Source: Malus domestica
Taxonomy: Eukaryota; Streptophyta; Magnoliopsida; Rosales; Rosaceae
Length of the DNA: 64,000 bases
Direction: 5' to 3'
Assembly (NCBI RefSeq): GCF_042453785.1
Contig: NC_091669.1
Coordinates: 10,304,501 to 10,368,500, forward strand
Notes under the pieces: model-generated
What the model saw: the letters and a program-made list of their open reading frames with translations, nothing else
What the model was told of the DNA's origin: nothing
Databases searched by the model: none
Shown: piece by piece, positions 15,984 through 52,765 of the stretch
How the letters are laid out: each line of letters starts with the position of its first letter
Numbering within the stretch: position 1 is the first letter of the stretch
Position numbers and translations under genes: made by a program

Positions 15984-15984
15984 G

Positions 15985-19810: not shown

Positions 19811-21739
19811 CTAGTATCGTTTCCCAAGAATGAGGCCGATGATCGTAGACACCACAGCCACTCCCACTCCCACTCCCACGATGAACTTAACGCTCGGCAT
19901 TGGGGAAGCCTTTGCCTCCCTTTCCGCTGCAGCCGCCTTAATGCTTCCAACCTACAATTCGTCTGAGTCAGAAAGAATATTTAAAAGATGAATGTGCCCC
20001 GTTCTTTGGCCGCCCAAGAGCTTATCTGTGGATTTTTTTTTCATGGAAATTGATTTCTACCTCTTTTTGCAGTTAAGGTTCAGTTTTCACCAATTTTTCT
20101 TCGAGTTCCTTGAGAGAATTCTGCAACAAAGGTTTCTCAGCAACCTCAGCCTTGAGATTTTCACCTCAGATTTTAAGGCAGCTTCTGCTTTTTGTTCCTT
20201 GAGCTGTTCTTCCAGGTTAGATATCACTTGCTGGAGTTCCTTGTTAGTATTTTGATGCACTTCATTAAGCAGGCGGTTCTCATCCATAAGTGAAGATATC
20301 TGTGGCAAACAGATGTAGCTAATAACCATAAAGCAACAATATTTAGCCGCAAAATAATTACAAAAAAGTTTGGTGCAAACCTGAGATTGTAGTTTCTGCC
20401 CTTCAGAAGAATGCTGCTGCGTTAAATCTTCAATAGTCCTTTTTGCAGCCTGAAGTTGTTCAACTGATCCGTCCTTCTCAGCAACGGCAGTGGAAAATTT
20501 TGCTTCAAGGTCACTTAGTTTGGACTCGTATGTAGACACATCTTCTTTAAGCTTTATATTTGCCTCAGCTAGTTTTCTGCTCTCTTCTTCAAAGTGAGCT
20601 GACTTGGTTTGCAGTTCCTTGAGAGAATTCTGCAATAAAGGTTTCTCAGCAGCCTCAGACTTGAGATTTTCAACCTCAGATTTTAAAGCAACTTCTCCTG
20701 CTTTTTGTTCCTTGAGCTGTTCTTCAAGGTTGGATATCACTTGCTGGAGTTCCTTCTTAGTATTTTGATGCACTTCATCAAGCAGGCGGATCTCATCCAT
20801 AAGCGAAGATATCTGTAGCAAACAGATGTAGCTAATAACCATAAGGCAACAATATTTAGCCGCAAAATAATTAAAAAAAAGTTTGGTGCAAACCTGAGAT
20901 TGTAGTTTCTGCCCTTCAGAAGAATGCTGCTGCGTTAAATCTTCAATAGTCCTTTTTGCAGCCTGAAGTTGTTCAACTGATCCGTCCTTCTCAGCAACGG
21001 CAGTGGAATATTTTGCTTCAAGGTCACTTAGTTTGGACTTGTATGTATACACATCTTCTTTAAGCTTTATATTTGCCTCAGCTAGTTTTCTTCTCTCTGC
21101 TTCACAGTTAGCTGATTTGGTTTGCAGTTCCTTGAGAGAATTCTGCAATAAAGGTTTCTCAGCAGCCTCAGCCTTGAGCTTTTCAACCTCAGATTTTAAA
21201 GCAGCTTCTCGTGCTCTTTGTTCCTTGAGCTGTTCTTTAAGGATGGCTATCTCTAGCTGGCGCGAAGGCATCTGTGGCAAACAGATGTAGCTAATAACCA
21301 TAAAGCAACAATATTTAGCCGTAATATAATTACAAAAAAGTTTGGTGCTTTCCAGAAATTCCAGAAAATCCATTAGCTTCCAAATCTCTCTGGCTGAATG
21401 TTTCAATGGCTTCTTGCAACTTCGTTTCAGCTTCCACAATGCGGGCTTCGGAAGCAGAATGAAGTTCTAAGGCTCTCGAGTGCTTATCTGTTAATTCTTC
21501 AACAGTGCTCTTGTGCAAAGGCTCTGAACTGCATCCTAACATCATGTGTAAAAACAAGCAAGAGGAGGCACCAACTCATTAGTGGGTGAAGTCTTTTGGC
21601 AGCGTCCCGACTCCAAACCAAAACAAAAATAAAAAGATGCAGGACAATTCGAAGATAATACCTGGTGACTGGGAAGGCGACCGATCATCCAACTCACGGA
21701 CAACCAGCTTTGCCCTTGGATCAACAACTTCAAACAAAT
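19811..21739 (-). pseudogene. coiled-coil copy A: chimeric, truncated PICC paralogue
   Basis: Minus-strand pieces in order: E0 21739-21662; E1 from 21535 to about 21355 (matches parent exon 2, VEELTDKHSRALELHSASEA); M1 21271-20894; M2 20812-20381; M3 20299-20061; and a fused tail exon 19951-19811. Introns between M exons are 81 bp with GTTTGC donors and CAG acceptors. M2 is the 432-bp module; M1 is a shortened version. M3 is 239 bp instead of the 243 bp of the parent exon: a 3-bp loss plus a 1-bp loss (GATTTTCACCTC against GATTTTCAACCTC) shifts the frame, which then stops at 20087-20089. The tail exon still encodes the membrane anchor (KFIVGVGVGVAVVSTIIGL). The E1-to-M1 junction has lost its donor. 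Most likely non-functional as a full-length protein; a product ending in M3 is possible. Confidence 0.7.
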
Positions 21740-21799: not shown

Positions 21800-22651
21800 A
21801 ATACAAGGAACTCTGACGTGGAGCTTCTACAGGGATGATCTATATAGCAAACGATCGTAGATATGTATAAGATGGGTGGTGCAGGTGCTACAATAGGGAT
21901 TTTGACTATTAACTGCTTGATCAGTCGTATCCTATGGACCAGACCGAACTGACAATACCTGGTTGACACCCCAGAAAAACACGACTGATCAAGGGCACAT
22001 GCTAATATGAATAACTAGCCAGATTTCTCCGGCTCACTTTCATATCATATTTGCAGAATTCATGAAATGCGGATTCCCCACTATATACAATATATTCGAA
22101 ACTACTATTTAATCGCCCTTTTTCTGTTTCTAATGACTCCAAATTGAAATTTCTATTTCAAAATGAAGTTCTAAACACAATTCAATAAAGAAACGCCCAA
22201 TGGCAGTGACATCAGAATCACCAAACATGCAAATCCAAACTTAACCCGGTTTTCGCAACCATATTATCCATAAAACACCTCAAATAATTACAATTAGTGA
22301 TTAAGCATAAGATCAAACCTAAAAAACAATTCAAATCCAAATGCAAACCAAATTAACCAATGGAGCAGCTTCCACGGAAGAAATGGGAGAGATTAAAAGC
22401 TCGAATTCGAGAGATTGCCAAACCAAAACGCAATGCATCAAATTGCCAAACCAAAAAGCAATGCATCAAAACCATCCCCGGATTAGATTCTTACTTAGCT
22501 GTTAAGCTTGGGATGTTTAGTGATTGGTTATATATATTCTTAACTATCTGTTGAAGAAATATAAATCTTGACAGAAAGGAAGAACATGAAAAGGAATCTT
22601 GTGTGAGAAGATAGAGCTTAGAATCTTTTAGAGAGATTTTTTTAGAGAGAA
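21800..22651. repeat. duplicated 5' flank, copy A
   Basis: About 850 bp repeated in B (46230-47088) and in A' (25432-25802, 33552-33706, 38651-38948, split by two retrotransposons). Landmarks are GACTGATCAAGGGCACATGC, AACCCGGTTTTCGCAACC and GGAGCAGCTTCCACGGAAG. It is absent upstream of the full-length gene, so it came from another locus. The frame 22360-22554 within it is not conserved between copies. Confidence 0.8.
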
Positions 22652-23033
22652 AGGTTTCTCAGCAGCCTCAGCCTTGAGATTTTCACCTCAGATTTTAAAG
22701 CAGCTTCTGCTTTTTGTTCCTTGAGCTGTTCTTCAAGGTTAGATATCACTTGCTGGAGTTCCTTGTTAGTATTTTGATGCACTTCATTAAGCAGGCGGTT
22801 CTCATCCATAAGCGAAGATATCTGTGGCAAACATATGTAACTAATAACCATACGGCAATAATATTTAGCCGCAAAATAATTAAAAAAAAGTATGGTGCAA
22901 GCCTGAAATTGTAGTTTCTGCCCTTCAAAAGAATGCTGGTGCGTTAAATCTTCAATAGTCCTTTTTGCAGCCTGAAGTTGTTCAACTGATTCGTCCTTCT
23001 CAGCAACGACAGTGGAATATTTTGCTTCAAGGT

Positions 23034-24838
23034 CACTACTACAATATTAGCTTTAGGTGTCGGATGATGGTGGCGGTTTAATAAGACATTATGTCGGATA
23101 AGAGATATCTGACACATCATTCAGTTAGTGTCGGATAACAATGAAATCATGTCGATTATATCTGCTAGTATTTTTGAATTTTTTTTATAAATATTTTTAA
23201 CATATTCCGGCGGTTTTTAAGTTAATGGTGGCGGTTATAATTGACAGAAATTGACTATTTTATTATTTTAAAATATTATATTGATTAAAAATAAATAAAT
23301 AAATAAACATATGGTTTAAATATATTTTTAGGGGGGGGGTGGATTTAAAATCGTAACAAAATTTTGGAGGAGAACTTAAAATTTTGGGAGGGAATTTTGG
23401 GGGGAATTTTGCCGCAATTTTTTTTTTGTCGGTTATAACCGATAGTAATGAAAATTTTATATCGATTTTTATTTTAAAAAATGTTATTGTCAGTTTTAAT
23501 TGACAGTAATGAAAATTTTCCAAAATAAGACCCCTTCATCTCTTCGTTGCGTCGGTGCCTTTTCCCTTCCCTCTTCCTTCAATGAAATCATTTCAGCTTT
23601 TTACATTATATCTCTCTCTCATTTCACTCTCTCTCTCTAAACCTTTCTCTCAATTTTCTCTGTGAGTTCATAGTGTTCACCAACGGTAATTCTTTAGTTA
23701 TGTTAATATGTTATCGATAGCCATCGATTCTTCATGGGTTTTCTGTTACTGAATCTTTTGGGGGAGCTTTTCGTTGGAATCTTCGTCTGGGGTTTCATCT
23801 GGGTTGCATTCTTAGTTGTGTTCATCATGTTCATAGTTGTATGTGCTACTCTCTCATTTGTTTCCGCTCTGATGGTTATGATGGTGTATGCTGATAAGGT
23901 TAAATCTGGTGAAATCTCAGGTTCTATGTTCGAAACCTTGCAACATATTATCTTTGATTCTTGATTTCTTGTGCTGTTTTTTGTTAAAGATATGAGATTT
24001 TCAGTATACATATACGTTACTATGAAAGTTAATCAGTAGTGTTAAAACAATTAAAGGCCAAATTGCCAATGTGATAGAGGTCAGATGCCATTGTTTGAAC
24101 GGCAATTGCCAAATCTGTGAATCTTGATTGAAGTTGTGAAGGCCGATGGCCATAGATTGATTATAGTTAGAATTTGTAAATGGAGAATACTAGTTTTCTT
24201 GTTAATCTTGAAGTGATAAGTTGGTTGTGTATGCTTGTGAATTTGTAAGTGGAGAATACTAGTTTTCTTGTTAATCTTGAAGTGGAGAATACTAGTTATT
24301 CTGCACTATATATGCAAGGGTCTGCAAGTTCTTCCTTGGATTCTCATAATCAAATTGGTGAAGGACAATTTCTAATTCTGTTAGTATTGACTCATCAACT
24401 GGTGGAAGAAGTCGTGTTCCTCTTTGTTCAAATAATCAACACAACATTCTGGTTTTCAACCCTAACAACCTCAACAACAAGCATTCTATCCTTTGGCACC
24501 TGCTAATGATTTTGGATCTGGTTTTGTGGGAAAGAAATGATTCAGAAAGTGGTTTATATATATTTTTTATTATTAATATAATTTCTGTCGGTTTTATCCT
24601 ATAGAGAATGCTCTTATTTATTTTATTAATAAATTCTCTATCGGTTATATCTGACACAAGTTCTGTCGGTTTTAGTGTATTTTCTGTCAGAAAATTCATT
24701 TCCTGATGCTGGCAATTCTGTCGCTTATTATATACGCCACTGCATCCATATTCTGTCAAATTTTACTTAATATGTGATAGTAATATACGTTTCTTGTCGG
24801 TTATCATAACGACACTAATAAATGGTTTTGTAGTAGTG
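23034..24838. mobile_element. non-autonomous CACTA (En/Spm) transposon
   Basis: The ends are inverted CACTACTACAA repeats (left at 23034; right end GTAGTAGTG at 24830-24838). Subterminal GTCGGTT / AACCGAC motifs recur near both ends (around 23085, 23430, 24588, 24665 and 24797), as expected for transposase-binding repeats of CACTA elements. The host coiled-coil sequence stops and resumes almost exactly at the insertion (CAAGGT / TTAGTTTGGACT). A clean 3-bp duplication is not visible because the target itself resembled CAC. No transposase is encoded. Confidence 0.75.
23734..23964 (+). CDS. small hydrophobic ORF inside the CACTA element
   Basis: A 76-residue frame whose first ~55 residues are almost entirely Leu, Val, Phe, Ile and Met (LLGELFVGIFVWGFIWVAFL...), enough for two membrane segments, followed by a polar tail (YADKVKSGEISGSMFETLQH). 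The polar tail and the CT-rich leader at 23600-23660 suggest a captured piece of a host gene. I do not recognise a family; it may be untranslated. Confidence 0.3.
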   Translation: MGFLLLNLLGELFVGIFVWGFIWVAFLVVFIMFIVVCATLSFVSALMVMMVYADKVKSGEISGSMFETLQHIIFDS

Positions 24839-25802
24839 TTAGTTTGGACTGGTATGTAGACACATCTTCTTTAAGCTTTATATTTGCTTTATATTTACCT
24901 CAGCTAGTTTTCTGCTATTTTCTTCAAAGTAAGCTGACTTGGTTTGCAGTTCCTTGAGAGAATTCTGCAATAAATGTTTCTCAGCAGCCTCAGCCTTGAG
25001 ATTTTCAACCTCAGATTTTGAAGCAGCTTATCCTGCTTTTTGTTCCTTGAGCTGTTCTTCATGGTTGGATATCACTTGCTGGAGTTCCTTCTTAGTATTT
25101 TGATGCACTTCATTAAGCAAGCGGTTCTCATCCATAAGTGAAGATAACTGTGGCAAACGGATGTAGCTAATAACCATAAAGCAACAATATTTAGCTGCAA
25201 AATAATTACAAAAAAGTTTGGTGCAACCTGAGATTGTAGTTTCTGCCCTTCAGAAGAATGCTGCTGCGTTAAATCTTCTATAATCCTTTTTGCAGCCCGA
25301 AGTTGTTCAACGGCAGTGGAATATTCTGCTTTAAGGTAGGACTCGTATGTAGTAGGCCCACCACCACCACTGCTAAGATCGGCGAGCATGATCGCAGACA
25401 CCACAGCCACGCCCACGAGGAACTCTGACGTGGAGCTTCTACAGGGATGATCCATATAGTAAACGATCGTAGATGGTATAAGATGGGTGGTGCAGGTGTT
25501 ACAATAGGGATTATGACTATTAACTGCTTAATCAGTCGTATCCTATGGACTAGACCGAATTGACAATACCCGTTTGATACCCAAGAAGAACACGACTGAT
25601 CAAGGGCACATGTTAATATGAATAACCAGCCAGATTTCTCTGGCTCACTTTCATATCATATTCGCAGAATTAATGAAATGCGGATTCCCCATAATGAAAT
25701 GCGGATTCCCCACTGTATACAATATATTCGAAACTACTATTTAATCGTTCTTTTTCGGTTTCTGAAGACTCCAAATTGAAATTTCTATTTCAAAATGAAG
25801 TT

Positions 25803-28735: not shown

Positions 28736-28914
28736 TCAAGACTGTTCGAAACAAATTCAATTAATATGGTTCATCCAAACTTTCGACTACTACAAGGTGT
28801 GGCTTGCATCACAATCTCTTGCTCAACAATGTGGAAGCAAAATTTGTATATGTTGTTTCTCCCACATTTTCAAATTTCTAGTTTCCTAAAAAAAAAAAAA
28901 AAGAAGGGAAATTC

Positions 28915-33036: not shown

Positions 33037-33551
33037 TGTTTGTACCATACTTAACCAATCCCAAAACTACTGAGCACCAGTCAACGTTATACCGTCAAGG
33101 ACCCAGAAGAGTTTCCCTCCAACCAGAAGGCCAATCACAGCACGACAAGTGTCGACATCAGAAGCCAATCATAGCGCGACACGTGTCAACATCAGAAGCC
33201 AATCACAACACGACACGTGTCAATGTCAGAATGAAACTAGAAACTCTATTCTATAAATAGAGATCATTCTCTCACAATATTTCCTAATGTCATTTGTACT
33301 AAATCATTCACTAGTACTCACAAAAGGAGAGCTTGAACCTATGTACTTGTGTAAACCCTTCACAATTAATGAGAACTCCTCTACTCCGTGGACGTAGCCA
33401 ATCTGGGTGAACCACGTACATCTTGTGTTTGCTTCCCTATCCCTATCCATTTACATACTTATCCATACTAGTGACCGGAGCAATCTAGCGAATGTCACAA
33501 ACTTCACACTTTCTGTTGTACCAAAGTACTCACTGATTTTGTGCATCAACA
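33037..33551 (+). repeat. right LTR
   Basis: 515 bp, the same length as the left LTR, with scattered substitutions and the same CTATAAATAGAG box and CACGTG-bearing units (the first unit is altered to ACAAGTGTC). Ends GCATCAACA before the AAGTT duplication. Confidence 0.88.
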
Positions 33552-33706
33552 AAGTTCTAAACACAATTCAATAAAGAAACGTCCAATGCCAATGACATTA
33601 GAATCACCAAACATGCAAATCCAAACTTAACCCAGTTTTCGCAACCATATTATCCATAAAACACCTCAAATAATTACAATTAGTGATTAAGCATAAGATC
33701 AAACCT

Positions 33707-36700
33707 TGTTGAAGTATTGAAGTGTATTTTGGCCTCTAAAGTCAACTACCATGTTCTCTAGGGATAGCTTTAGGCACTAGAGTAATTAGTCTTCTTTCCT
33801 TGATTTAAGGGATGTGATTGATTGGTGAGTTGCCATGTTCTCTAGGGATAGCTCGAGGCACTAGAGTAATTAGTCTTCTTTCTTATCCCTCTTTTTTCCC
33901 CCTCTTTCTTCTCATATATATCTGGACCCCTTGTACATTAAATTCATGAAATACAATACAAATTAAAGCCATAATTTCTATATGGTATTAGAGCAGGTTC
34001 TTTTGTAACATGTCTCTGCCATTCTTGTTGCTGCGATTTTTTTCTTTCAAAGTCTAAGTCATGGCTGCAGAAAGTTCTGTGAACCATGATGAGGAAACCC
34101 AGCATAGTCTCTCTCCAAACTTCTCAGACGTTAAGGTTAACACCAGTCAACGTTTATGTTCAGTTCTCTTAAACGAGTTCAATTATCTTCCTTGGTCCCG
34201 AGCTGTTTCATTAGCTCTTGGAGGCAAAGGGAAGTTAGGGTTTGTAAATGGAAGCGTAGAAGCTTTAGACCGTTCTTCCTCTACATACGATGCATGGCTC
34301 TGCAAAGATCAACTTGTCATGTCCTTGCTGCTCAACACCATGGAGAAACATGTTGCTGAAATTTTTAGCTACTCCAATTCCACACATGATCTTTGGAAAG
34401 CTTTGCAGGATATGTATGGAAATCAAAACAACTATGCGCGGGTCTTCCAATTAAAGAAGGACATTGCCAGTGCTCAACAAGAAGGGAAAGAGTTTGTTCA
34501 ACACATTGGGAGTCTCAAAGCCATGTGGAATGAGTTGGATGTATATCTCCTACATACCACAGATCCTACCATTCTCTTAAAACGAGCTGAGGAAGACAAA
34601 ATTTATCAGCTGTTCGGGAGTTTGAGCTCTGAGTACGAGGACCTAAGGAGTTACATCTTGATGAGTCAATACCTATCTACCTTCAACAATGTTTGTGCAG
34701 CTATCCAACGAGAATAAGCAAGGAATAAGGTTATGAATGCTGATCACATCCCCAGATTGACTGAGACTCGGGCATATGCATTAAATTACAAGAATTTAGA
34801 AGCCAAGGTATACAAGGGAAAAAACACACATCTAAAATGCAAATATTGCAATGGTGTTGGTCATGTGGAAGACAAGTGTTGGGAACTTCATCCTGAACTT
34901 AAGCCTAAGTTCAGCAAAGATGGAAAAATGATACCAAGGTCCTCACAGGAATTTCAACCTCATTTCAAGGCACAACTTGCTAATGCTCACCTTCCTACTA
35001 TTTCACAAGGATCCATGGAGTTCACTGCCAATCCATTGTCACTGATCAATGAATTTGCAGCTTACCTACAAAGTAAGGGACACGAAAGAGGCTTACATGG
35101 TCAAGGCAATGAAGAGGGTAGTCACACAGCTATGTTGGGACAATTTGCCGGCTTTCTTGCTGGAAATGAGAAAATTCCAAAGAAAGAAGCATCAGGTATG
35201 CTCAAAGCCTTCACTACTGCCCTATTAATTAGTACTGAGACTGATTGTTGGATAATTGATTCAGGCGCCACAGATCATATGACAAACAAAGTTACAAATT
35301 TACATCATTTTAAAAAAATTTCAAGTCCCCCGCATGTGTTTGTTGCAAATGGAAAAAATGTCTTAGTTTTGGGAAAAGGAGAAATAAACTTACTCTCTCA
35401 AAAAATACCTTCCACTGCCCTCTATGTACCAACCTTTCCTTTCCAACTTTTGTCAATTGGAAAGATCACTAACACTCTAAACTGCCGTGCTATTTTTGTC
35501 ACCAAATAATGTGATGTTTCAGGATGTTCTTACCATGAAGATGATTGGTGAAGGGGTCTTCATAAATGGACTTTACTACCTGTGCAAGAATGCCTGTTTC
35601 ACTCAGGCTCTTCAAGCTCAATCAAAGTCCATAGACGAAAACCAACTTTGGCATAGGAGATTAGCTCACCCTTCTGAAGTTGTCTTGTCTAAACTGTTTC
35701 CAAATTTTTTAAACCTTTATCCTACTTGTGATACTTGTCAATTTTCTAAGTTTACTAGGCTACCTTTTGGTAATTCAATGTCTAGGACAAGTAAACCTTT
35801 TGAAATGGTACACACTGATGTATGGGGACCTACAACTAAATCAATGGAAGGGTTTAAGTACTTTGTTCTATTTGTTGATGATTTCTCTCGAACACGTTTT
35901 CTATATCTTATGAAACCAAAGAGTGAAGTCCCAACCATTTTCAAAGATTTTCACATGCATGTTAAAACACAATTTCAATCAAACATTAAGGTTTTAAGGT
36001 CAGATAATGGCACTAAATTTATATCCAACAACATGTTTCAATACATAAGTTCTCAGGGTATCATACATCAAACCAGCTGTGTAGGGACTCCTAAACAAAA
36101 TGGAGTAGCCGAGAGGAAAAATAGAGATCTCTTGGAGAAGACTCGTGCTCTCATGATTCACATGCATGTTCCAAAGAAATTTTGGTCGTTTGCCATCCTT
36201 ATTGCCACTTATCTCATCAATCGACTTCCAAGTCGTGTGCTAGGGTTTAAATCTCCCTATGAACTTCTTAAGGGGAGGAAAATAGATTTGACACACCTCA
36301 AGGTGTTTGGTTGTGTTTGTTTTGTTCACATCCAAACCTTAAACTGTGATAAACTAGATGTTAGGGCAACCAAGTGTGTGTTTATGGGATACTCGGCCAC
36401 CCAAAAGGGATACAAGTGCTTTAATCCAGTCATTAAGAAGTGCACGATTTCAAGAGATTTGAAGTTCAAAGAAGACTGTCCCTATTTTACACGTCAGGGG
36501 AAGGATTTAGTTGATATGTTCCCACTCCCTCAAAACTTTAATCATCCGATGTTGGAAGAAAGATCAGTCACTGTGAGTCCAGATTGTGAAGAGGTACAAA
36601 CTAACCAAATTATTGCCAGTGAGAGTGAAGAAGAGCCCTACTCTGATCATTCTCAGTCCACTACAGAGTCTCAGGTGATTAAGAGAAACCCTTCTCGAAT

Positions 36701-38645
36701 CAGAAAACCTCCAGCTAAGTTGCAAGACTATGTTACATATGCCTCACAACATCCTATCACTGAATGTATCAGCTTTAGTAAGTTCTCAACATCTCATGCT
36801 GCATTTCTTAGTGAAATTGATAAGCACTGTGAACCAAGAAGCTTTCAAGAAGCTTCTCTTCTCCCACAATGGAAACAAGCCATGACAGAAGAGCTTCATG
36901 CACTGGAAGAGAATCACACCTAGAGTTTAGTTCAATTACCACCAGGAAAAAAGGCTGTTGGAAGTCGTTGGATCTACAAGACAAAATTCAAAGCTGATGG
37001 ATCTATCGAGAGACACAAGGCTAGACTTGTTGCTCGAGGTTTCACCCAAACCTTTGGAGTAGATTATAAGGAAACATTTGCACTTGTGGCCAAGATGAAC
37101 TCAGTCAGGGTTTTACTTTCAGTTGCAATCATTATGGGTGGTCACTCTACCAAATGGACGTGAAGAATGCTTTCCTTCACGGAGAGTTGCAGGAAGAAGT
37201 GTATATGCAACCTCCTCCAGGCTATGATGGTATCAAAGGCAACATGGTTTGCAAATTGCACAAGGCAATATACGGATTGAAACAATCGCCAAGAGCTTGG
37301 TATGCCAAACTCAATTCTGTTCTGGAAAATGCTGGATTCGTGAGAAGTAATGTTGATTCTTCGTTATTTGTGAGAACTGGCATCAGTGGGAAGTTGGTGG
37401 TCCTCATCTACGTTGATGATCTTATCATCACTAGAGATAGTATCATGGAGATTGAGGCACTAAAACTCTCACTACATCAAACTTTCGCTATCAAAGATTT
37501 GGGGAGGTTAAAGTATTTTTTGGGGATCAAAATGGCAACATCTTCAAACGGACTGTTTCTAGATCAACAGAAATATGTATTGGACCTTATTCAAGAAGCA
37601 AAAATGCTTGACTGCAAGCCTACTATCATTCCCGTTGATTGTAAACTGAACCTCAGCATAGATGGAGAAGCCATGCATGATGTAACCTACTATCAACGAT
37701 TAGTAGGTAAATTCATATACCTTACCATCACTCGTCCAGATATCACTTATGCAGTGAGCTTGGCTAGTCAGTTTATGCACTCTCCCACTGTTGATCACCT
37801 TAACATTGTTAAGAGAATCCTTCGTTATCTTAAGGGTTTAATAGGGCAAGGAATTACAATGCACAACAATCAATCCACTGTCATTAATGGCTACACAGAT
37901 GCAGACTGGGCAGGTAATGCAATTGATAGGAAATCAACCACAGGCTATTGTACATTTGTTGGTGGAAACCTTGTCACTTGGAAGAGCAAGAAGCAACAGG
38001 TAATTGCTCGTTCCAGCGCAGAGGCTGAGTATCGAGCCATGGCAACCACTGCTTGTGAACTCATTTGGCTTAAAGGGCTTCTTTCAGACTTAGGATTTTC
38101 TAGTTCTACTCATATGTCACTTATGTGTGATAATCAGGCAGCTATGCATGTTGCTGCCAACCCTATGTTCCATGAAAGAACCAAACATATTGAAGTGGAT
38201 TGTCATTTCATCAGAGCTCAAGTTCAAACTCAAATCATCCGGACCATGTTCACACGAAGCCATGATCAATTGGCAGATCTCTTTACAAAGGCATTGGCAT
38301 CCACTCAGTTCCATCGATTATTAGGCAAGCTTGGCTCAGTTAACCTCCTTGATCCAGCTTGAGGGGGAGTGTTGAAGTGTTGAAGTGTATTTTGGCCTCT
38401 AGAGTCAGCTACCGTGTTCTCTAGGGATAGCTCTAGGCACTAGAGTAATTAGTCTTCTTTCCTTGATTTAAGGGATGTGATTGATTGGTGAGCTACCATG
38501 TTCTCTAGGGATAGCTCTAGGCACTAGAGTAATTAGTCTTCTTTCCTATCTCTCTTTCTTCTCCCTTTTTCTTCTCATATATATATGGACCCCTTGTACA
38601 TTAAACTCATGAAATACATTACAAATTAAAGCCATAATTTCTATA
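33707..38645 (+). mobile_element. Ty1/copia LTR retrotransposon, 4.9 kb, defective
   Basis: Two 276-bp LTRs (33707-33982 and 38370-38645) start TGTTGAAG and end TTTCTATA. They are flanked by AACCT (33702-33706 and 38646-38650). The primer-binding site TGGTATTAGAGCAGG (33983) matches initiator Met-tRNA, and a GAGGGGGAG polypurine tract (38361-38369) precedes the right LTR. Each LTR contains an internal ~100-bp tandem duplication (TTCTCTAGGGATAGCTC twice). Domain order gag, protease, integrase, RT, RNase H is that of Copia. Four lesions break the polyprotein, although the LTRs are very similar. Confidence 0.95.
34061..38362 (+). pseudogene. Copia gag-pol polyprotein, broken
   Basis: Gag 34061-34714, then an in-frame TAA (34715-34717). 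The same frame continues with a zinc knuckle (CKYCNGVGHVEDKC) and the protease (WIIDSGATDHM). A 1-bp insertion near 35490 shifts the frame to 35487-36923, with HRRLAHPS, integrase core HTDVWGP / RSDNGTKF / ERKNRDLLE. A TAG at 36921-36923 (where Trp is usual) and a frameshift near 37120 precede the RT/RNase H part (37154-38362): [52 protein letters not shown]. The expected single frame is therefore interrupted four times and the element cannot make its own polyprotein. Confidence 0.93.
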
Positions 38646-38650
38646 AACCT

Positions 38651-38948
38651 AAAAGACAATTCAAATCCAAATGCAACCCAAATTAACCAATGGAGCAGCT
38701 TCCACGGAAGAAATGGGAGAGATTAAAAGCTCGAATTCAAGAGATTGCCAAACCAAAAAGCAATGCATCAAAACCATCACCGGATTAGATTCTTACTTAG
38801 CTGTTAAGCTTGGGATGTTTAGTGATTAGTTATATATATTCTTAACTATCTTGTACGAATTGCAGAAATATAAATCTTGATAGAATGGAAGAACATGAAA
38901 AGCAATCTTGTGTGAGAAGATAGAGCTTAGAATCTTTTAGAGAGAAAA
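38651..38948. repeat. end of duplicated 5' flank (A')
   Basis: Continues the 5'-flank repeat after the Copia insertion, parallel to 22320-22645 and 46745-47085 (GGAGCAGCTTCCACGGAAG; TTAGCTGTTAAGCTTGGG). It ends at GAGAGAAA, where unrelated Copia sequence begins. Confidence 0.8.
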
Positions 38949-40838: not shown

Positions 40839-42586
40839 TTCAAACGAGTGGATGGGCTGCCCTTTTTCTAAAACTTTATGACGTTGAAACAAATGGCTGG
40901 CCTTAAATATAATTGAGTGGATAAATTCTGTAATTGAACAGGCTAGATCTGTTACAAGATTTATCTACAAACACGTTATCATTTTGAACATGATGAGAAG
41001 GTATACGTTTGGGAATGACATTGTTAGGCTGTGGAACCCTGTTTATTTCCAGCCAATGATTGACGCAATTGCATCTGGGGGAATGGAGACTGTGGAACCC
41101 TCATATGATGACATTCGGGGTTGGATGTTGAAGAATGCAGTTGAAGAGATGAAAAGTGAAATTCAACAACACAAGGAAACTTGGGCGAGGAAAGGTTGTT
41201 CTCTTCTAGTCAGCCAATGGAATTCTGAAAAGGGTAGGACTTTGCTAAATTTTGCAGTGTACTCTTCTGAAGGAACAGCCTATTTGAAATCTGTGGATGC
41301 TTCTTACTTTATTTTTTCCCCAGATGCTTTGTTTGCATTTTTCAAGGAAATGGTGGAAGAAATTGGAGTGGTACATGTTTTGGAAGTCATTACAAATACT
41401 GAAGAGCAGTTTTCTGTTGTTGGGAAGAAGTTGATGGATACGTCCCCTTCACGCTGCAGGATTTTACCTTAATCCCAAGTTCTTTTATGGCTTCAAAGGA
41501 GACATGCATAATGAAATTGTGTCGAGGATGTTTGACTGCATAGAGAGATTGGTTCCTGATATAAAAGTCCAAGATGAAGTAATCAAAGAGATAAACTTGT
41601 ACAAAAATGCTGTTGGAGATTTGGGGAGGAATTTGGCAGTCCGAGCAAGGGACAATCTGCTTCCTGGTGAGAATGGTTCATTAGAATGCATGGTTATTTT
41701 GTGTCGCATGGTTTCTTTAGTTACTTGGCTATACACGTAGACCAAAGGTAATTAAGCCATATTTTAACTCGGTTTTAACCTTTAAATAATAGAATGATAG
41801 ATATGATAAATTGCATAAAATATACCCTGACCATCTATTTTTTATTTTTTGTTTAAATTCGATACGAGGGCTCCTATTTTGAGGATATGCTGCACAGGTT
41901 TGGATGTTCTTGCATCTTTTGGCTCATTTCTTTAAACTCTCTGTTTGTCTTAGCTGAATGGTGGTCTACATATGGTGGTGGTTGCCCAAACCTTGCACGC
42001 TTGGCAATTCGTATTCTCAGTCAAACTTGCAGCTTAGTTCCGTGTCAGGATCATCAGATTCCATTCAAACAGTTGCATAAGACAAGGAACAGCGTAGAAC
42101 ATCAGCGGCTTAATGATCTTGTTTTTGTTCAATACAACCTCAAACTAAAACAGAAGTAAGTGGAAACCATAGGTTCTGTTGATTTGTATTTCCAATTTCT
42201 TTGGTCAAAGAAAACAGATCTTTTGCTAATCAACTGTCTTATAGGGTTCATAAGCACAAAGAACAGGAGTACGTGGATCCTATATCATTTGACCGCAATA
42301 GCATTGCCGAAGAGTGGGTAGCAGAGATGGAGATGCACCAAGAAGACACTGAAAATCCTGATTGGATGTCACTTGATCCCCCCTCTGAGAACTCGAGGCT
42401 TTTAGAACTTTCGGTTGATGAAGTTGAAGAATTGGGTTCAGGTAACTAAGTTTGTATGGTTTGTAATTGATCGTCGAAGATATAATCTTTTCTACATCTT
42501 GAGTTAAACTAGATAGTTGGCAATGTACAGGGTTTGATGACAATGAAATTTTGAGCGGATTGAAAGTGGTTAAAGAAGAATGTTAA
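40839..42586 (+). pseudogene. scrambled partial copy of the hAT-derived gene
   Basis: Blocks of the gene at 15985-19204 occur here in the same orientation but shuffled order. Approximate source intervals in the order found are 17768-17804, 17709-17752, 17570-17689, 17090-17504, then 18060 onward without a break to the stop. The BED finger, AT-hooks and first third are missing, and the joint at about 41443 shifts the frame, so no full protein can be made. Exons 2-4 (41954-42155, 42245-42441, 42531-42586) and their splice sites are intact, still encoding the dimerisation segment. The longest frame is 40984-41472. Confidence 0.88.
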
Positions 42587-43193
42587 ACACAACGCTGTGA
42601 GCCGGCAGGACAGAATGCAAAGACAAGCATCTTTATGAGTTCACCACACCACCGTCACTTTCTTCAAGTACCTACAGGAAGCAAGGCACCTTAGCAAACT
42701 CGCATGTCTAGAGATACTGCTCGGGCCGATTATATTCTTTCCCTGGCATTACTGCAGAGTGACGGAAAGTAGGAGTAAAAATATGTGATCGTGGCCAGCC
42801 TCCAGTGATCTGAATTGGTTCGGCAAGTACCTGCAACAAACAATTACAAGTAGGTAGTATACATGGTAGAAAAATGGGGCTTTGTAGTTGACAATTAAAA
42901 ATAGTTGCCGAACGAGTTTTCAGTTTTAAGTTTTCGAAAAAGAAGGATAAAAACTGAAAATGAAATGCTTATCAAACGGCCCTGAAGTAATTTCATTTAG
43001 GGATCCGACCGTATGACTCACAAACAACTGAGACCGTCCTCTTCTTTTCATATCAACAAACGCACAAATTCTTATATTTCCGAAAGCATCAGCAACCCAA
43101 TATACAAACTAAATACGAACTTGAATAATACATAACCATCTGTGTTTTGCTTTGCAAACAGCCAAGGGAATAGCAAAAACACAAAAACTTGAT
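42587..43193. repeat. duplicated 3' flank, copy B
   Basis: Parallel to 19205-19810, including the shared absence of about 140 bp that is present downstream of the full-length coiled-coil gene (47720-47865). No separate gene. Confidence 0.85.
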
Positions 43194-46165
43194 CTAGTAT
43201 CGTCTCCCAAGAATGAGGCCGATGATCGCAGACACCACAGCCACTCCCACTCCCACTCCCACGATGAACTTAAAGCTCGGCATTGGGGAAGCCTCTGCCT
43301 CTCTTTTCGCTGCAGCCGCCTTAATGCTTTCAACCTACAATTCGTCTTAGTCAGAAAGAATATTTAAAAGATGAATGTGCCCCGTTCTTTGGCCGCCCAA
43401 GAGCTTATCTGTGGATTTTTTTTTCATGGAAATTGATTTCTACCTCTTTTTGCAGTTGAGCTTCAGTTTTCACCAATTTCTCTTGGAGTTCCTTGAGAGA
43501 ATTCTGCAACAAAGGTTTCTCAGCAACCTCAGCCTTGAGATTTTCAACCTCAGATTTTAAAGTAGCTTCTCCTGCTTTTTGTTCCTTGAGCTGTTCTTCA
43601 AGGTTGGATATCACTTGCTGGAGTTCCTTCTTAGTATTTTGGTGCACTTCATTAAGCAGGCTTTTCTCGTCCATAAGCGAAGATATCTGTGGCAAACGGG
43701 TGTAGCTAATAACCATAAGGCAACAATATTTAGCCGCAAAATAATTAAAAAAAAGTTTGGTGCAAACCTGAGATTGTAGTTTCTGCCCTTCAGAAGAATG
43801 CTGCTGCGTTAAATCTTCAATAGTCCTTTTTGCAGCCTGAAGTTGTTCAACTGATCCGTCCTTCTCAGCAACGGCAATGGAATATTTTGCTTCAAGGTCA
43901 CTTAGTTTGGACTCGTATGTAGACACATCTTCTTTAAGCTTTATATTTGCCTCAGCTAGTTTTCTGCTCTCTTCTTCAATGTGAGCTGACTTGGTTTGCA
44001 GTTCCTTGAGAGAATTCTGCAATAAAGGTTTCTCGGCAGCCTCAGCCTTGAGATTTTCAACCTCAGATTTTAAAGCAACTTCTCCTGCTTTTTGTTCCTT
44101 GAGCTGTTCTTCAAGGTTGGATATCACTTGCTGGAGTTCATTCTTAGTATTTTGATGCACTTCATCAAGCAGGCGGTTCTCATCCATAAGCGAAGATATC
44201 TGTAGCAAACAGATGTAGCTAATAACCATAAGGCAACAATATTTAGCCGCAAAATAATTAAAAAAATAGTTTGGTGCAAACCTGAGATTGTAGTTTCTGC
44301 CCTTCAGAAGAATGCTGCTGCGTTAAATCTTCAATAGTCCTTTTTGCAGCCTGAAGTTGTTCAACTGATCCGTCCTTCTCAGCAACGGCAGTGGAATATT
44401 TTGCTTCAAGGTCACTTAGTTTGGACTCGTATGTAGACGCATCTTCTTTAAGCTTTATATTTGCCTCAGCTAGTTTTCTGCTCTCTTCTTCAAAGTGAGC
44501 TGACTTGGTTTGCAGTTCCTTGAGAGAATTCTGCAACAAAGGTTTCTCAGCAACCTCAGACTTGAGATTTTCAACCTCAGATTTTAAAGCAACTTCTCCT
44601 GCTTTTTGTTCCTTGAGCTGTTCTTCAAGGTTGGATATCACTTGCTGGAGTTCCTTCTTAGTATTTTGATGCACTTCATCAAGCAGGCGGTTCTCACCCA
44701 TAAGCGAAAATATCTGTAGCAAACAGATGTAGCTAATAACCATAAGGCAACAATATTTAGCCGCAAAATAATTAAAAAAAAGTTTGGTGCAAACCTGAGA
44801 TTGTAGTTTCTGCCATTTAGAAGAATGCTGCTGCGTTAAATCTTCAATAGTCCTTTTTGCAGCCTGAAGTTGTTCAACTGATCTGTCCTTCTCAGCAACG
44901 GCAGTGGAATATTTTGCTTCAAGGTCACTTAGTTTGGACTCGTATGTAGACACATCTTCTTTAAGCTTTATATTTGCCTCAGCTAGTTTTCTGCTCTCTT
45001 CTTCAAAGTGAGCTGACTTGGTTTGCAGTTCCTTGAGAGAATTCTGCAATAAAGGTTTCTCAGCAGCCTCAGACTTGAGATTTTCAACCTCAGATTTTAA
45101 AGCAACTTCTCCTGCTTTTTGTTCCTTGAGCTGTTCTTCAAGGTTGGATATCACTTGTTGGAGTTCCTTCTTAGTATTTTGATGCACTTCATCAAGCAGG
45201 CGGATCTCATCCATAAGCGAAGATATCTGTAGCAAACAGATGTAGCTAATAACCATAAGGCAACAATATTTAGCCGCAAAATAATTAAAAAAAAGTTTGG
45301 TGCAAACCTGAGATTGTAGTTTCTGCCCTTCAGAAGAATGCTGCTGCGTTAAATCTTCAATAGTCCATTTTGCAGCCTGAAGTTGTTCAACTGATCTGTC
45401 CTTCTCAGCAACGGCAGTGGAATATTTTGCTTCAAGGTCACTTAGTTTGGACTTGTATGTATACACATCTTCTTTAAGCTTTATATTTGCCTCAGCTAGT
45501 TTTCTTCTCTCTGCTTCACAGTTAGCTGATTTGGTTTGCAGTTCCTTGAGAGATTTCTGCAATAAAGGTTTCTCAGCAGCCTCAGCCTTGAGCTTTTCAA
45601 CCTCAGATTTTAAAGCATCTTCTCGTGCTCTTTGTTCCTCGAGCTTTTTTGCAAGTTTGGATATCTCTTGCAGTAAGTCGGCTCCAATAGGCCAGCAGAA
45701 AGGCATCTGTGGCAAATAGATGTAGCTAATAACCATAAGGCAACAATATTTAGCCGCAATATGATTACAAAAAAGTTTGGTGCTTTCCAGAAAATCCATT
45801 AGCTTCCAAATCTCTCTGGCTGAATGTTTCAATGGCTTCTTGCAACTTCGTCTCAGCTTCCACAATGCGGGCTTCGGAAGCAGAATGAAGTTCTAAGGCT
45901 CTCGAGTGCTTATCTGTTAATTCTTCAACAGTGCTCTTGTGCAAAGGCTCTGAACTGCATCCTAACAGCATGTGTAAAAACAAGCAAAAGGAGGCACCAA
46001 CTCATCAGTGGGTAAAGTATTTTGGCAGCGTCCCGACTCCAAACCAAAACAAAAATAAAAAGATGCAGGACAATTGGAAGATAATACCTGTTGACTTGGA
46101 AGGCGACCGTTCATCCAATTCATGGACAACCAGCTTTGCCCTTGGATCAACAACTTCAAACAAAT
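43194..46165 (-). CDS. coiled-coil copy B: modular, tail-anchored PICC paralogue
   Basis: Exons on the minus strand: M1 45706-45308 (133 aa), M2 45226-44795, M3 44713-44282, M4 44199-43768 (144 aa each), M5 43686-43444 (81 aa, as parent exon 3) and tail 43334-43194 (46 aa). Introns in between have GTTTGC donors and CAG acceptors (81, 81, 82, 81 bp; the last 109 bp); all are phase 0, and the joined frame of 692 residues is open. Each module reads ISSLMDEN...ELQQVISNLEEQL...EDLTQQHSSEGQKLQSQ. The tail exon fuses the start of parent exon 4 (VESIKAAAAKREAE) to the parent's anchor (FKFIVGVGVGVAVVSAIIGL...GRRY). Upstream pieces E0 (46165-46088) and E1 (45961 to ~45786) splice to each other in phase, but E1 lacks a clear donor to M1, so translation may begin at the first Met of M1. 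Predicted: a homopolymer-like coiled coil anchored in the ER by its C-terminus. Expression unknown. Confidence 0.6.
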
Positions 46166-46229
46166 CTGAGGCCAAAGGAAAAAGTTACAAACTTTACACA
46201 TCAAGGGCACAAGAAACGTTGCAGTAATA

Positions 46230-47088
46230 CAAGGAACCCTGACGTGGAGCTTCTACAGGGATGATCTATATAGCAAACGATCGTAGATGGTATAAGATGG
46301 GTGGTGCAGGTGCTACAATAAGGATTTTGACTATTAACTGCTTAATCAGTCGTATCCTATGGACCAGACCGAACTGACAATACCTGTTTGACACCCCAGA
46401 AAAACACGACTGATCAAGGGCACATGCTAATATGAATAACTAGCCAGATTTCTCCGGCTCACTTTCATATCATATTCGCAGAATTCATGAAATGCGGATT
46501 CTCCACTATATACAATATATTCGAAACTACTATTTAATCGCCCTTTTTCTGTTTCTAATGACTCCAAATTGAAATTTCTATTTCAAAATGAAGTTCTAAA
46601 CACAATTCAATAAAGAAACGCCCAATGGCAGTGACATCAGAATCACCAAACATGCAAATCCAAACTTAACCCGGTTTTCGCAACCATATTATCCATAAAA
46701 CACCTCAAATAATTACAATTAGTGATTAAGCATTAGATCAAACCTAAAAAACAATTCAAATCCAAATGCAAACCAAATTAACCAATGGAGCAGCTTCCAC
46801 GGAAGAAATGGGAGAGATTAAAAGCTCGAATTCGAGAGATTGCCAAACCAAAACGCAATGCATCAAATTGCCAAACCAAAAAGCAATGCATCAAAACCAT
46901 CACCGGATTAGATTCTTACTTAGCTGTTAAGCTTGGGATGTTTAGTGATTAGTTATATATATTCTTAACTATCTTGTACGAATTGCAGAAATATAAACCT
47001 TGACAGAAAGGAAGAACATGAAAAGCAATCTTGTGTGAGAAGATAGAGCTTAGAATCTTTTAGGGAGAGTTTTTAGAGAGAAAGGTTT
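46230..47088. repeat. duplicated 5' flank, copy B
   Basis: Parallel to 21800-22651, including TGATCAAGGGCACATGC and the CTTCCACGGAAG box. Uninterrupted here. It presumably supplies the promoter of copy B, if there is one. Confidence 0.8.
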
Positions 47089-47156
47089 GTCAGCAGCCTC
47101 AACCTTGAGATTTCAACCTCAGATTTTAAAGCAGCTTCTCTTGCTTTTTGTTCCTT
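47089..47156 (-). pseudogene. short coiled-coil module remnant at the duplication joint
   Basis: A ~70-bp piece of module sequence (AGCAGCCTCAACCTTGAGAT...TTGTTCCTTGAGC) joins directly to the 3' flank of copy C (CGGCAGGACAG). The shared bases GAGC mark the junction. Confidence 0.7.
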
Positions 47157-47720
47157 GAGCCGGCAGGACAGAATGCAAAGACAAGCATCTTTATGAGTTC
47201 ACCACACCACCGTCACTTTCTTCAAGTACCTACAGGAAGGAAGGCATCTTAGCAAACTCGCATGTCTAGAGATACTGCTCATGCCGATTATATTCTTTCC
47301 CTGGCATTACTGCAGAGTGAGGGAAAGTAGGAGGAAAAATATGTGATCGCGGCCAGCCTCCGGTGATCTGAATTGGTTCGGCAAGTTCCTGCAACAAACA
47401 ATTACAAGTAGGTAGTTTACATGGTAGAAAAATGGGGCTTTGTAGTTGACAATTAGAAATAGTTGCCGAACGAGTTTTCAGTTTTCAAAAAAGAAGGATA
47501 AAAACTGAAAATGAAATGCTTATCAAACGGCCCTAAACTAATTTCATTTAGGGATCCGACCATATGACTCACAAACAACTGAGACCGTCCTCTTTTCATA
47601 TCAACAAACGCATAAATTCTTATATTTTCGAAAGCATCTGCAACCCAATATACAAACTAAATACAAACTCCAATAACACATATTCATCTGTGTTTTGCTT
47701 TGCAAACAGCCAAGGGGATA
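47157..47720. repeat. duplicated 3' flank, copy C
   Basis: Matches 19217-19790 and 42598-43170, so the full-length coiled-coil gene once had, or was copied with, the same downstream neighbour. Sequence beyond 47720 (to 47884) is the unique 3' UTR missing in A and B. Confidence 0.8.
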
Positions 47721-47884: not shown

Positions 47885-50800
47885 CTAGTATCGTTTCCCA
47901 AGAATGAGGCTGATGATCACAGACACCACAGCCACTCCCACGACTCCCACGATGAACTTAACGCTTGTCATTGGGGAAGCCTCAGCTGTATGTGTATGGA
48001 TATCTGAAGATGATGAGGTTTGAGCAGGTGTTGCTTCTGACTTCTTCTTGCTCTTCCTTTTCGATGGAGTTGAAATGATTGATCCAATGTCCCTGGATTT
48101 CACTTCCAGTCCGGCTACACTGCCTCCGTCACCCTACAACACGATCATTTAAACATAAGTAAATTTAATTTCCCACTCGAATTCTTGTAAGTTAAAAGCC
48201 TTGTGCAAGCTGAAACCCTTTTCGTATGGTTTAATGTTTTCATTTCCCCCGAGTTGTTTTCGACAATTATGTCCAAAAACTTGACATCTACTGAGAGCTT
48301 AAGATTATGTAACTAGCGTATGCTGTTTTCGAAATTTCTACTGTGGTGGTAACTATAAAGTGAGTTGGAAACAGAAATAAACATACCCTTTCTGTTACTT
48401 TGGTATCTGCCAGCTGCACTTTCTGCTCAAGCTCTTTGACTTGCTTATCTAGAAGAGCGATTTCTTTATTCTTAGCTTCAAGTTCTTCAAGAGAATGCTT
48501 CAAAGATGCTTCTCGTTCCAGGTCCTTTTGAGAATCTGCTTCTTTCTGTTGAATAGGGAATTCAAACATGAACGTTTTCGCCGGCATTAAATTCCTTTTG
48601 TAGAGAATTGTCAGCGTACAGTTTAAGTAAAAGAAATCTTGAAAACTGATCGGTTCCTAACCTTTTCGGAAACGGTGGCATGAGCAAGTTGTAACTCGCT
48701 CTGGAGTTTTGTGACTTGTTCATTTAATAAATCTCTGTCATGGACCTTATGCGCATGATCGTCCAATTTTGAAGTCAACTCTGCCTCTCTTTCCGCTGCA
48801 GCCGCCTTAATGCTTTCAACCTACAATTCGTCTGAGTCAGAAAGAATATTCAAAAGATGAATGTGCCCCGTTCTTTGGCCGCCCAAGAGCTTATTTTTTT
48901 TTTTCATGGAAATTGATATTCTACCTCTTTTTGCAGTTGAGCTTCAGTTTTCACCAATTTCTCTTCAAGTTCCTTGAGAGAATTCTGCAACAAAGGTTTC
49001 TCAGCAACCTCAGCCTTGAGATTTTCAACCTCAGATTTTAAAGCAGCTTCTCCTGCTTTTTGTTCCTTGAGCTGTTCTTCAAGGTTGGATATCACTTGCT
49101 GGAGTTCCTTCTTAGTATTTTGATGCACTTCATTAAGCAGGCTGTTTTCATCCATAACTGAAGATATCTGTGGCAAACGAATGTAGCTTATAAGCATAAA
49201 GCAACAATATTTAGCCGCAAAATAATTATAAAAAGTTTTGGTGCAAACCTGAGATTGTAGTTTCTGCCCTTCAGAAGAATGCTGCTGCGTTAAATCTTCA
49301 ATGGTCCTTTTTGCAGCCTGAAGTTGTTCAACTGTTTCATCCTTCTCAACAACGGCAGTGGAGTATTTTGCTTCAAGGTCACTTAGTTTGGACTCGTATG
49401 TAGACACATCCTCTGTAAGCTTTATATTTGCCTCAGCTAGTTTCCTGCTCTCTTCTTCAAAGTGAGCTGACTTGGTTTGCAGCTCCTCAACAAAACTCTC
49501 CAGATTGTTCAGCTTCGATAGACTCTCTTCTAGCTCTGCATTTCTGGTTTCAGAAACCGCAGATGTTTCTCGAACTTGCTCTTCATACAATTTTATTTGG
49601 CCTTCTAGGGCATTTAGCTTCTCCAGCAAGTCGTTAGCTTCCAAATCTCTCTGACTCAATCTTTCAATGGCTTCTTGCAACTTCGTCTCTGCTTCCACAA
49701 TGCAGGCTTCGGAAGCAGAATGAAGGTCTAAGGCTCTCGAGTGCTTATCTGTTAATTCTTCAACACTGCTCTTGTGCAAAACAAGTTCTCTTGTAGTGGC
49801 TTCAGTTTCAGATAGAGCAGTATTCAACGATTCCTGCAATTCATCAATCTTGCATTTCAGCTGAACATTCTTCTCAACTAGCATTTCGTTTTCTGAGAAA
49901 AACTTAGAAGCTTTGTTTTCTGCTTCCAAGATCTGTTTTCTGAGTTCTTCATTGGTACTTTCGGAAGATGCCAATTTAGCCAAGCTGTTGTCCAGCTCTT
50001 CTTTCAACGATGCAGATTTCCCCGCTGCTTCAGCAACATGCTCTTCATAAATCTTCACCTGATCTTCAAGAATCTTTAGTTTCTCAAGCAGAGAATTTGC
50101 CTCGGCATCCCTGTTAGTGAAGCGCCCTATTTTTTCTTGAAGTTTGATCTCTGAATCCCTCACTAGGGTTTCATGTAGTGCTTCAAGCTCTGATTTCTTT
50201 GACATTGTTTCCTTTATTACTTTGCCTTGTTGCTCCAGTTGCTCCTCCGCAGATTTGAGTTTCTGTATGACCTCGCCTTCTCTGATTCCAGCAGTATTCA
50301 GATCATTTTCAATGCTTTCCAATTTCTCTTGAGTCATCTTCAATTCTTCTCTCAAGACCTCCACCAATTTTTCTGATTCGGAAAACTTCTCAGTAAAACT
50401 ACTCGATGCATCCTCCAACCTTTTCTTCTCTTCTGTGGCAACATTCAAGGCTTCGAACAACTCCCTTCCCTTTTCGTTGGCTGCTTCCAGTTCAACTTCA
50501 ATGCTAGATGTTCTCGCTTGGAATGCCTCGAGTTCAGAAGCAAGTTCAGATACCTTGTTAGAGTAATTCCCAGAATCTGCTTCTGCCTCCTGACATTTCT
50601 TTTCCAACGCAGTTATTTGTTCCTCGAGTTCTTGAATTCTGGACTTCTCTGTTTCAAGCATCAACTCCAGCTCGCTCACCTTTTTACCAGTAACCTCCAC
50701 TTTGGTATGAGAAATTTGGACCAAATCTTCAAGTTCGAGGCTTCGCTGATGGTGTTCACTGGCCCGGCCCTCATGTTCGGCACATTTCTCGGAGGCAGTC

Positions 50801-52765
50801 TTCAGTTCCTCCTGAAGATCTGAATATTGCAAAGTTGACTGGTTTAACGCAGATTCCAGCTGGCCTGTCTTCTCTTGGTATTCTTGCACCTGACCAGTCA
50901 GCTGTTTCTTTTCTTCCTCGACCTTGCTCAATGCAGTATTGAGTGCAGATAATTTTTGAGAGAGTTCTTCCAGACCACTCTCAGTAATTCCTCGGTTCAG
51001 CTCTACCGCACTTACCTGTTGCTCAAGCTCTACATTCTTTTGTTCTACTGCTATAAAGAGCATCTCGAGCTCTCTCAGTTGTGACTTTGCCTCCTCCGCT
51101 GCTGCATTTGAAGCTTGAATAATTGCTTCAAGTTCAAGATTCTTGTCAGTAACAGTTGCAAAAGCAGTTCCTGATTCATTATGGAGCTCTTCCAGCGACT
51201 TCAACTTCTGTTCAAGCTCGGCATTGTTTGACAAAGATTGAGACAAAAGAGCATCTTTTTGACGAAAATTCTCTTCCGAAAGCTTCAATTTTCCTTCGAG
51301 ATCACTGCACAGCTCCTTCATCAGCTGCACATTACCGGTGAGATCTGCCACAGCTGCTTCCAGACCTCCTTTTTCTTTGGTTACTATTGCCAAATTCTCC
51401 TGTGCAGCTACGGACTGTTCTTCATGAGTTTTTCGTGCAGCTTCAACTAATTCCTTGGCGCTCAATTCGTCCCGTAGCTTCAGCTTGATTTCTTCCAATT
51501 CAGAAACCTTTGCTTGAAGATCTTCTTTAGTTGACGAAAACAGATTTTCAAGAGCGGAAATATCTTCCTTCACTTGAGATTCCGAGGCCTTTTTCAAGCT
51601 CAATTCCTCACTCAGTTCATTTATCAGAGCTTCCTTAGCCGAGAGCTTCTCCTCCAGGTTCACGCCTTGAGACTTTGATAGAGCCAGCTCTTCTTGGACA
51701 GCAGAAAGCTCGGCAGCGGTAGAACTGAGTGCTTCTTTGACTTTTTCATCTTCGGCAATCTTTTCATACAGGCCCTTGAGTTCTCCTTGTATGGATGCCA
51801 TCTGATCTTCCATCTCTTTCGCACTCAACCTTGTTGCTTCGAGCAGTTTCTCGAACTCCAAGGCCCTCTTTGTCTCAGATTCGGCATGTGAACCACTTTG
51901 CTTGTGCAGCTCCTCAAACTTTTGTACCTCGCAGGCAGAACTCTGCAGCTCTTGCTCCAATTCCTGCATCCTCTTTCTTGAGCTTTCAAGCTCCAGGTTG
52001 AGACCATCAAACGATTCCTTCACCCCGATCAGATCCTTGTGCTTTTCTTCTTGAGCTTGCAATGCCTCTTGCAAAACATTGAGCTGCGAACTGTATTTCT
52101 CCTCGGCTTCGGTGATTTGCTCTTGCAATTTCTTATGACTGAGTTCAAGCTCTTCATACTTCTTTCCACTTTCTCCCAGCTTCTTCTTCGTAAGCAAGAC
52201 CTCATGCTTCAACTCAGAACTCTCTGATTCTGAATGCTTCAACGCACCAGCCAACCTTTCGATTTCAACCTCAAGGTCACTGACCTTCTCCCGTGCTTCT
52301 AGCAATTCTCTGCTCAAATTGCTCGAGCTTCTCTCAATAACAGATACCTTGTCGTCCTCTGCCAATGCTGTTTCAGCAGCATGAGAACCATCCTTCACAT
52401 CTATCGATTCTCTCTCAACTTTTATGAACTCTCCATCAAATGTTGCTTCCTCCTCTTCTTTCTTTCCTTCTTTTTCTACCGGCAGCAATTCCCCATTCGA
52501 TACCTACATCGAAAACAACATTCAGCATCCATTCAAATCATGCAAAATCAAATGATCCCACGAAAAGACTGAAACGTTCAGTTGCAAACTAATCCATGAA
52601 TGACTACTGTAACTTAATTCCGATCACTTCAAACAAAACTAGCAAAGAGAAAGGCTTGAATCACAGAACGCAGATCGCGGTTACCTTGATCGCTTCGGCA
52701 TTTGCAGTCTCGGCATTCTCTGCAACCTTCACCGGGGTTTCGGAGATCACTTGTGCTTCTTCCAT
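47885..52765 (-). CDS. PICC: full-length PICC-type long coiled-coil protein, tail-anchored
   Basis: Six exons on the minus strand: 52765-52685, 52503-49249, 49167-48925, 48820-48662, 48545-48387 and 48133-47885. All lengths are multiples of three and every intron is phase 0, giving 1381 residues. It starts MEEAQVISETPVKVAENAE, has an acidic region (EEEEATFDGEFIKVE), then over 1000 residues of heptad-rich coiled coil (e.g. EELTDKHSRALDLHSASEA). A basic Ser-rich segment follows (TPSKRKSKKKSEA), then a C-terminal membrane segment (VKFIVGVVGVAVVSVIISLI) ending GKRY. This matches Arabidopsis PICC (AT2G32240), an ER tail-anchored coiled-coil protein linked to PAMP responses. The 81-bp second intron (49248-49168) has no stop and stays in frame, which is why a longer frame can be read through it; the Arabidopsis protein supports splicing. 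This is the parent of copies A, A' and B. Confidence 0.92.

Follow-up and report, generated by a model that had tools for sequence, protein, structure and literature searches.

PICC and PICL (At2g32240 and At1g05320) are plant tail-anchored ER coiled-coil proteins, and the sixth exon of PICL is its last (PMC3581476). HvARM1 is described as a partial duplicate of HvPUB15 in the Triticeae (PMC6092874). Here we describe a PICC-like gene and a truncated, internally repeated copy of it (termed array B) that lie together in the window, i.e. the whole stretch of 64,000 nucleotides of Malus domestica DNA that was analysed. We consider it probable, though well short of certain, that array B is a 5′-truncated partial tandem duplicate of the PICC-like gene under relaxed constraint, most likely within a decaying pseudogene cluster.

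The parent gene and the exons of array B

The parent gene P (47885..52765, (-) strand) is complete, with six exons separated by introns that are all in phase 0. Exon 5 starts at 48545, and exon 2 has 3255 bp, this large exon coming from our own gene model. The product of 1381 aa is mostly coiled coil, with a hydrophobic C-terminal stretch that is the membrane anchor. The long coiled coil, the C-terminal anchor and the large second exon are the layout of PICC and PICL; the name is given by analogy, on the basis of that layout and of the published description of At2g32240 and At1g05320.

The rod of the parent contains an older internal duplication. Residues 812-965 and 966-1119 are identical at 56 of 154 positions, and the offset of 154 residues is exactly 22 heptads; the region is encoded at 49147-50151, mostly inside exon 2. 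The best 60-residue window on this diagonal scores 153, compared with a maximum of 77 in ten block shuffles. Windows on a 133-residue diagonal (19 heptads) are weaker and fall inside the spread of the maxima from shuffling. This gene has therefore been lengthened by internal duplication before.

Array B is made of six exons on the (-) strand. M1 (45308..45706, 399 bp) is a divergent first module. It is followed by M2 (44795..45226), M3 (44282..44713) and M4 (43768..44199), each a module exon of 432 bp (144 aa), then by M5 (43444..43686, 243 bp), which is the direct counterpart of parent exon 3, and lastly by a tail exon (43194..43334, 141 bp including the stop codon) that ends in a membrane anchor. 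All are in phase 0, and all six are free of internal stops. The introns are 81, 81, 82, 81 and 109 bp long; all five are GT-AG, and every junction is in phase 0. There are four repeat units of 512-513 bp with pairwise differences of 2-5%, units 2 and 3 differing at 11 of 512 bases. Whole exons thus lie head to tail with their flanking intron and in a single phase, as in tandem exon duplication. In the tail exon the beginning of parent exon 4 runs in frame into the last part of parent exon 6, which encodes the membrane anchor; all of exon 5 and the greater part of exons 4 and 6 have been lost.

Each module follows parent exon 3 as far as LKEL, and then continues as the end of parent exon 2 from QTKSAH. 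The DNA at the two breakpoints shares only AGGA-x-CT (6 of 7 bases, compared by eye), so the joint is one of microhomology and not of extended homology. The unequal exchange proposed in the first-pass annotation fits the labile number of modules (five in array B, three in the sister array A described below), as expected of such a process.

In a heptad scan, made with a home-made scoring scale set by judgement and not with a published predictor, one register run crosses the joint in M1 to M4. The 144 residues of the module are 20 heptads plus four, and in the same scan register shifts of 3 or 4 alternate in both the array and the parent. AlphaFold2 predicts M2 to be one helix (residues 2-143, mean pLDDT 95), as is to be expected for a sequence of this kind. 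Because every parent intron is in phase 0, the number of copies can change without a frameshift. The structural description given in the first-pass annotation is thus borne out; this comprised 432-bp phase-0 exons M2 to M4 with introns of 81-82 bp in a unit of about 513 bp, a module in which parent exon 3 continues into the last part of exon 2, five open M exons leading to a membrane anchor, and tandem amplification of whole exons without loss of frame.

A Pfam scan of M2 gave no named domain, all 25 families among the matches listed being under the cut-off; the best was Cep57_CLD_2, with 25.2 bits against a cut-off of 27.1. A search of viral contigs for relatives of M2 gave six stretches that matched a pattern, of which none was confirmed.

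We note that the 81-bp intron of the parent (49168-49248) is a multiple of three in length and free of stops. The same is true of three of the four introns between the M exons of array B (43687-43767, 44714-44794 and 45227-45307), and the 81-bp intron of the copy on contig C17 (see below) is open too, as read by eye. Were such an intron retained, the rod would be interrupted midway by 27 residues of rather hydrophobic character, in the manner of an exitron.

Parent P lies upstream of array B on the same strand, so that the array might act as an alternative 3′ end of the parent. This would involve read-through, with the exon-2 donor spliced to the phase-0 acceptors of the array, giving a longer rod with a variant anchor, and it would need no promoter belonging to the array. 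Parent exon 2 and the five M acceptors are all in phase 0 and near-identical around the acceptor, so splicing would be in frame. Nevertheless it would require about 2-4 kb of read-through together with skipping of the parent's four last exons, and the array lineage is without amino-acid constraint (see below); we regard this explanation as improbable.

The 5′ end of array B, its sister copies and the rest of the genome

Array B has no 5′ part of the parent and no start exon; what it contains is the last part of exon 2, exon 3 and the fused tail. It lacks the full-length rod and the native start of a gene of the PICC or PICL type. The remnant of parent exon 2 is a fragment of 164 bp (45782..45945, (-) strand) joined straight to intron interior; the donor bases GTTTG are missing and its native frame soon stops. 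Before this lies a segment of about 1.1 kb that is not derived from PICC (45946..47080, (-) strand) and is present before array A too. It is preceded by an 80-bp fragment of an exon-3-type module (47081..47160, (-) strand), 1 bp shorter than the corresponding stretch of the parent, which is joined to the parent 3′ flank and forms a duplication joint.

The gene had been taken in the first-pass annotation to extend to 46165. This would add a 78-bp exon-like stretch (46165-46088), which could join M1 in frame; on reading the sequence, however, no frame works for splicing it to the exon 2 fragment, and such splicing was rejected. The ATG at 45799 and the one that opens M1 share an open frame, as do their counterparts in array A (read by eye); they are putative start codons.

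Array A (19811..21519, (-) strand) has the same order of elements, with an exon-2 fragment, M1 (21271-20894, open), one 432-bp module (20812-20381, open), a terminal module (20299-20061) broken by a frameshift and a stop, and an open tail (19951-19811). The terminal exon has suffered deletions of 3 bp and 1 bp, followed by TAA in the parent's frame. The arrays are 23 kb apart, with three M exons in array A and five in array B. A third module copy (22650..25311, (-) strand) has an in-frame stop and is split by a 1.8-kb insert (about 23031-24839) with CACTA-type ends, CACTACTAC...GTAGTAGTG. A stretch of 28 kb thus holds, in addition to the parent, three PICC-derived copies, of which two are broken.

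M1 is strongly diverged over its first 50-70 bp (45640-45706 in array B, 21200-21271 in array A), both between the arrays and relative to the other modules, although beyond this point arrays A and B hardly differ in M1. A genome search with 45600-45780 gave no better source than array A (78%) among the matches listed.

Parts of the non-PICC 5′ segment are also found at 25415-38945, interrupted by two LTR elements that are both inserted in this third copy of the segment. In the first (25803-33551) the LTR pair is 95.1% identical, with AAGTT on both sides, and in the second (33707-38645) it is 94.2% identical. Long tandem arrays of 95-bp and 15-bp repeats occupy 27795-29665 inside the first element. 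Elsewhere in the window there is an open frame for a GRAS-domain protein (10603-12108).

The PICC 3′ flank of array B (42598..43193, (-) strand) passes directly into the neighbouring DUF659 gene, an arrangement also seen on contig C17. The DUF659 gene copy here (40913..42592, (+) strand) is partial and rearranged, and marks a segmental duplication common to arrays A and B. The other copy (15976-18357) has an open frame of 793 codons. The DUF659 segments are in a different order in the two copies (15976-19210 and 40913-42592).

Divergence between arrays A and B is patchy. It is 0.6% in unit 1, 1.0% in the DUF659 part and 2.6% in the 5′ segment, rising to 4.7% in the PICC 3′ flank, 6.0% in the terminal module and 9.7% around the start of M1, where there is also a 21-bp gap; this points to exchange or gene conversion between the copies. 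Unit 1 of array A differs from unit 1 of array B at 3 of 512 bases. These are closer than units 2 and 3 of array B, so the number of units changed after or around the split of A and B. Comparison of the sequences suggests that array A probably lost units rather than that array B gained them.

Genome assemblies are known to be prone to error at near-identical tandem repeats, and the first-pass annotation had allowed for an error of expansion. The extent of difference between the units marks them as distinct copies, each with private changes, and unit 1 with its flanks recurs elsewhere, in array A. That the array arose in assembly is thus very improbable indeed.

The genome (651 Mb in 19 contigs, the window lying on contig C9) was searched with the tail, M5 and adjoining bases. 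There were at least 15 matches, 13 on C9, all of them inside the window, and two on C17; among these listed matches there was no array outside the window. Contig C17 carries one plain copy, in which exons 2 and 3 are unfused, with a DUF659 neighbour as on C9. Its protein is 83-93% identical to that of parent P over exons 2-6 and 76% over exon 1. Since the C17 copy has the DUF659 neighbour, the DUF659-PICC order is likely to be ancestral. This paralogous locus is probably homoeologous to the one on C9, C9 and C17 being regarded as a pair. Capture by a transposable element was thought unlikely, as the flanking DUF659 gene is the neighbour on C17 too.

Selection, decay and coding potential

Nucleotide changes in the module region were polarised using the C17 copy as outgroup. 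The parent branch has no nonsynonymous and six synonymous changes (0N:6S), and the array stem has 5N:1S. Within the arrays there are 26N:10S, giving 31N:11S for the whole array lineage (stem plus within). In the within-array count each derived base per column was taken as one event and array A was included, with five events private to its second unit (2N, 3S), without which the total is 29:8; M1 enters the counts without its first half and M5 without its end, and the tail and the third module copy do not enter at all. The parent branch differs by Fisher's test from the array lineage (0:6 against 31:11, p=0.001) and from the stem (0:6 against 5:1, p=0.015), in each case with the proviso that a single event may appear as several through gene conversion, so that events are non-independent.

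A nonsynonymous share of 31 out of 42 is that predicted for no selection (cumulative P between 0.26 and 0.76 for the neutral shares tried), so that purifying selection on the array protein is not seen in the 31N:11S. Exons vary within the arrays to the same degree as introns (36 variable sites of 431 against 5 of 81, Fisher p=0.66), and the changes include radical substitutions such as G>W, R>W and S>F. Two further comparisons were not significant, i.e. unpolarised N:S of the stem against within-array (p=0.15), and exon against intron changes in the stem (p=0.15). For the parent compared with its C17 counterpart, dN/dS is 0.07 in one half of the module region and 0.18 in the other, and 0.37 over exons 1-3. 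Pairwise values from parent to array are about 0.4, and that of M5 against parent exon 3 is about 0.2, so M5 may be less relaxed than M1-M4 and have been constrained for longer. To judge from these counts, which are small (the parent branch having six changes in all), the amino-acid constraint that the parent keeps in this region is gone from the array lineage.

The first-pass annotation saw here a gene lengthening its rod. That reading is not, or only in part, supported, given the absence of the parent 5′ part and of a donor before M1, the two broken sisters, exons that vary like introns and the lack of amino-acid constraint in the array lineage. Signs of a pseudogene are the 5′ truncation and lost donor in array B and the disabling changes in array A and the third copy; against these, the exons of array B are all open. 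In a rough neutral simulation of the five M exons alone, array B keeps every one of them open with a probability of 0.2-3%. The simulation took 37 or 45 assumed events, a transition bias of 2 and assumed rates of frame-breaking indels of 0.04-0.08 per substitution, for which the few gaps observed served as a guide. So low a probability might argue that the array coded for part of its history, but is suggestive at most because there were three copies to choose from and array B was picked for being open. Gene conversion may also have spread open copies. Past or present coding of array B may thus be considered possible.

If it were expressed as a partial duplicate, from its own promoter in 45946-47080, array B would give a short membrane-anchored rod that could pair or compete with the full-length protein. 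Its open exons, improbable under pure decay on the above simulation, its intact splice sites and the in-frame ATGs at 45799 and in M1, open in both arrays, would be consistent with this. Expressed partial duplicates are known in barley (PMC6092874), and PICC is reported to form homodimers (PMC3581476). The 31N:11S of the array lineage, the radical changes and the absence of the native start exon all argue in the other direction, and we think expression of this kind unlikely. More doubtful still is a transcribed rod cassette of variable copy number, driven by its own promoter or by read-through, in which the number of modules would set the length of an anchored coiled coil that tunes the full-length protein. 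If true, phase-0 introns and a register-preserving joint would let the length of the rod change in whole steps with the protein unbroken.

The origin of array B as a decaying partial duplicate could be explained as follows. A partial duplicate would have formed on contig C9; it is not found on C17, where the plain paralogous copy sits. A microhomology joint would then have united exon 3 with the last part of exon 2 in a 513-bp unit that retained the intron, and unequal exchange, as the presumed cause of the change in number, would have added or removed whole units. Segmental duplication including part of the DUF659 gene would have led to array A with three M exons and array B with five. The array would no longer be held to the protein sequence of the parent and would probably have no present function, array B being open by chance or kept open until recently.

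Comparison with known systems

The locus is a compact case of the gain of modules by a coiled-coil gene, in which a microhomology fusion that keeps both frame and heptad register was followed, we infer, by changes of whole units. Sister arrays with three and five M exons lie close together, and an unduplicated paralogous locus is available as outgroup. Open frames in such arrays do not alone prove a working gene, and a relic seems a better description of array B than a new, longer protein.

Like PICC and PICL (PMC3581476), parent P has a very long coiled coil, a C-terminal membrane anchor and six exons. Unlike them, the array retains, in repeated form, no more than the final segments of the coil and the anchor; its module begins near parent residue 1036, and about three quarters of the protein, counted from the N terminus, are therefore absent. 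The array resembles HvARM1 in being a truncated gene copy, HvARM1 holding only an interaction domain (PMC6092874). HvARM1 is expressed and functionally tested, whereas the array is known from its sequence alone, and is tandem, internally amplified and under relaxed constraint. In the tandem exon duplication of animal genes such as Dscam, whole exons are likewise duplicated head to tail. In Dscam the copies reportedly belong to a complete gene and are used alternatively in splicing, while those of the array lie in a truncated gene and, if spliced, could be joined in series.
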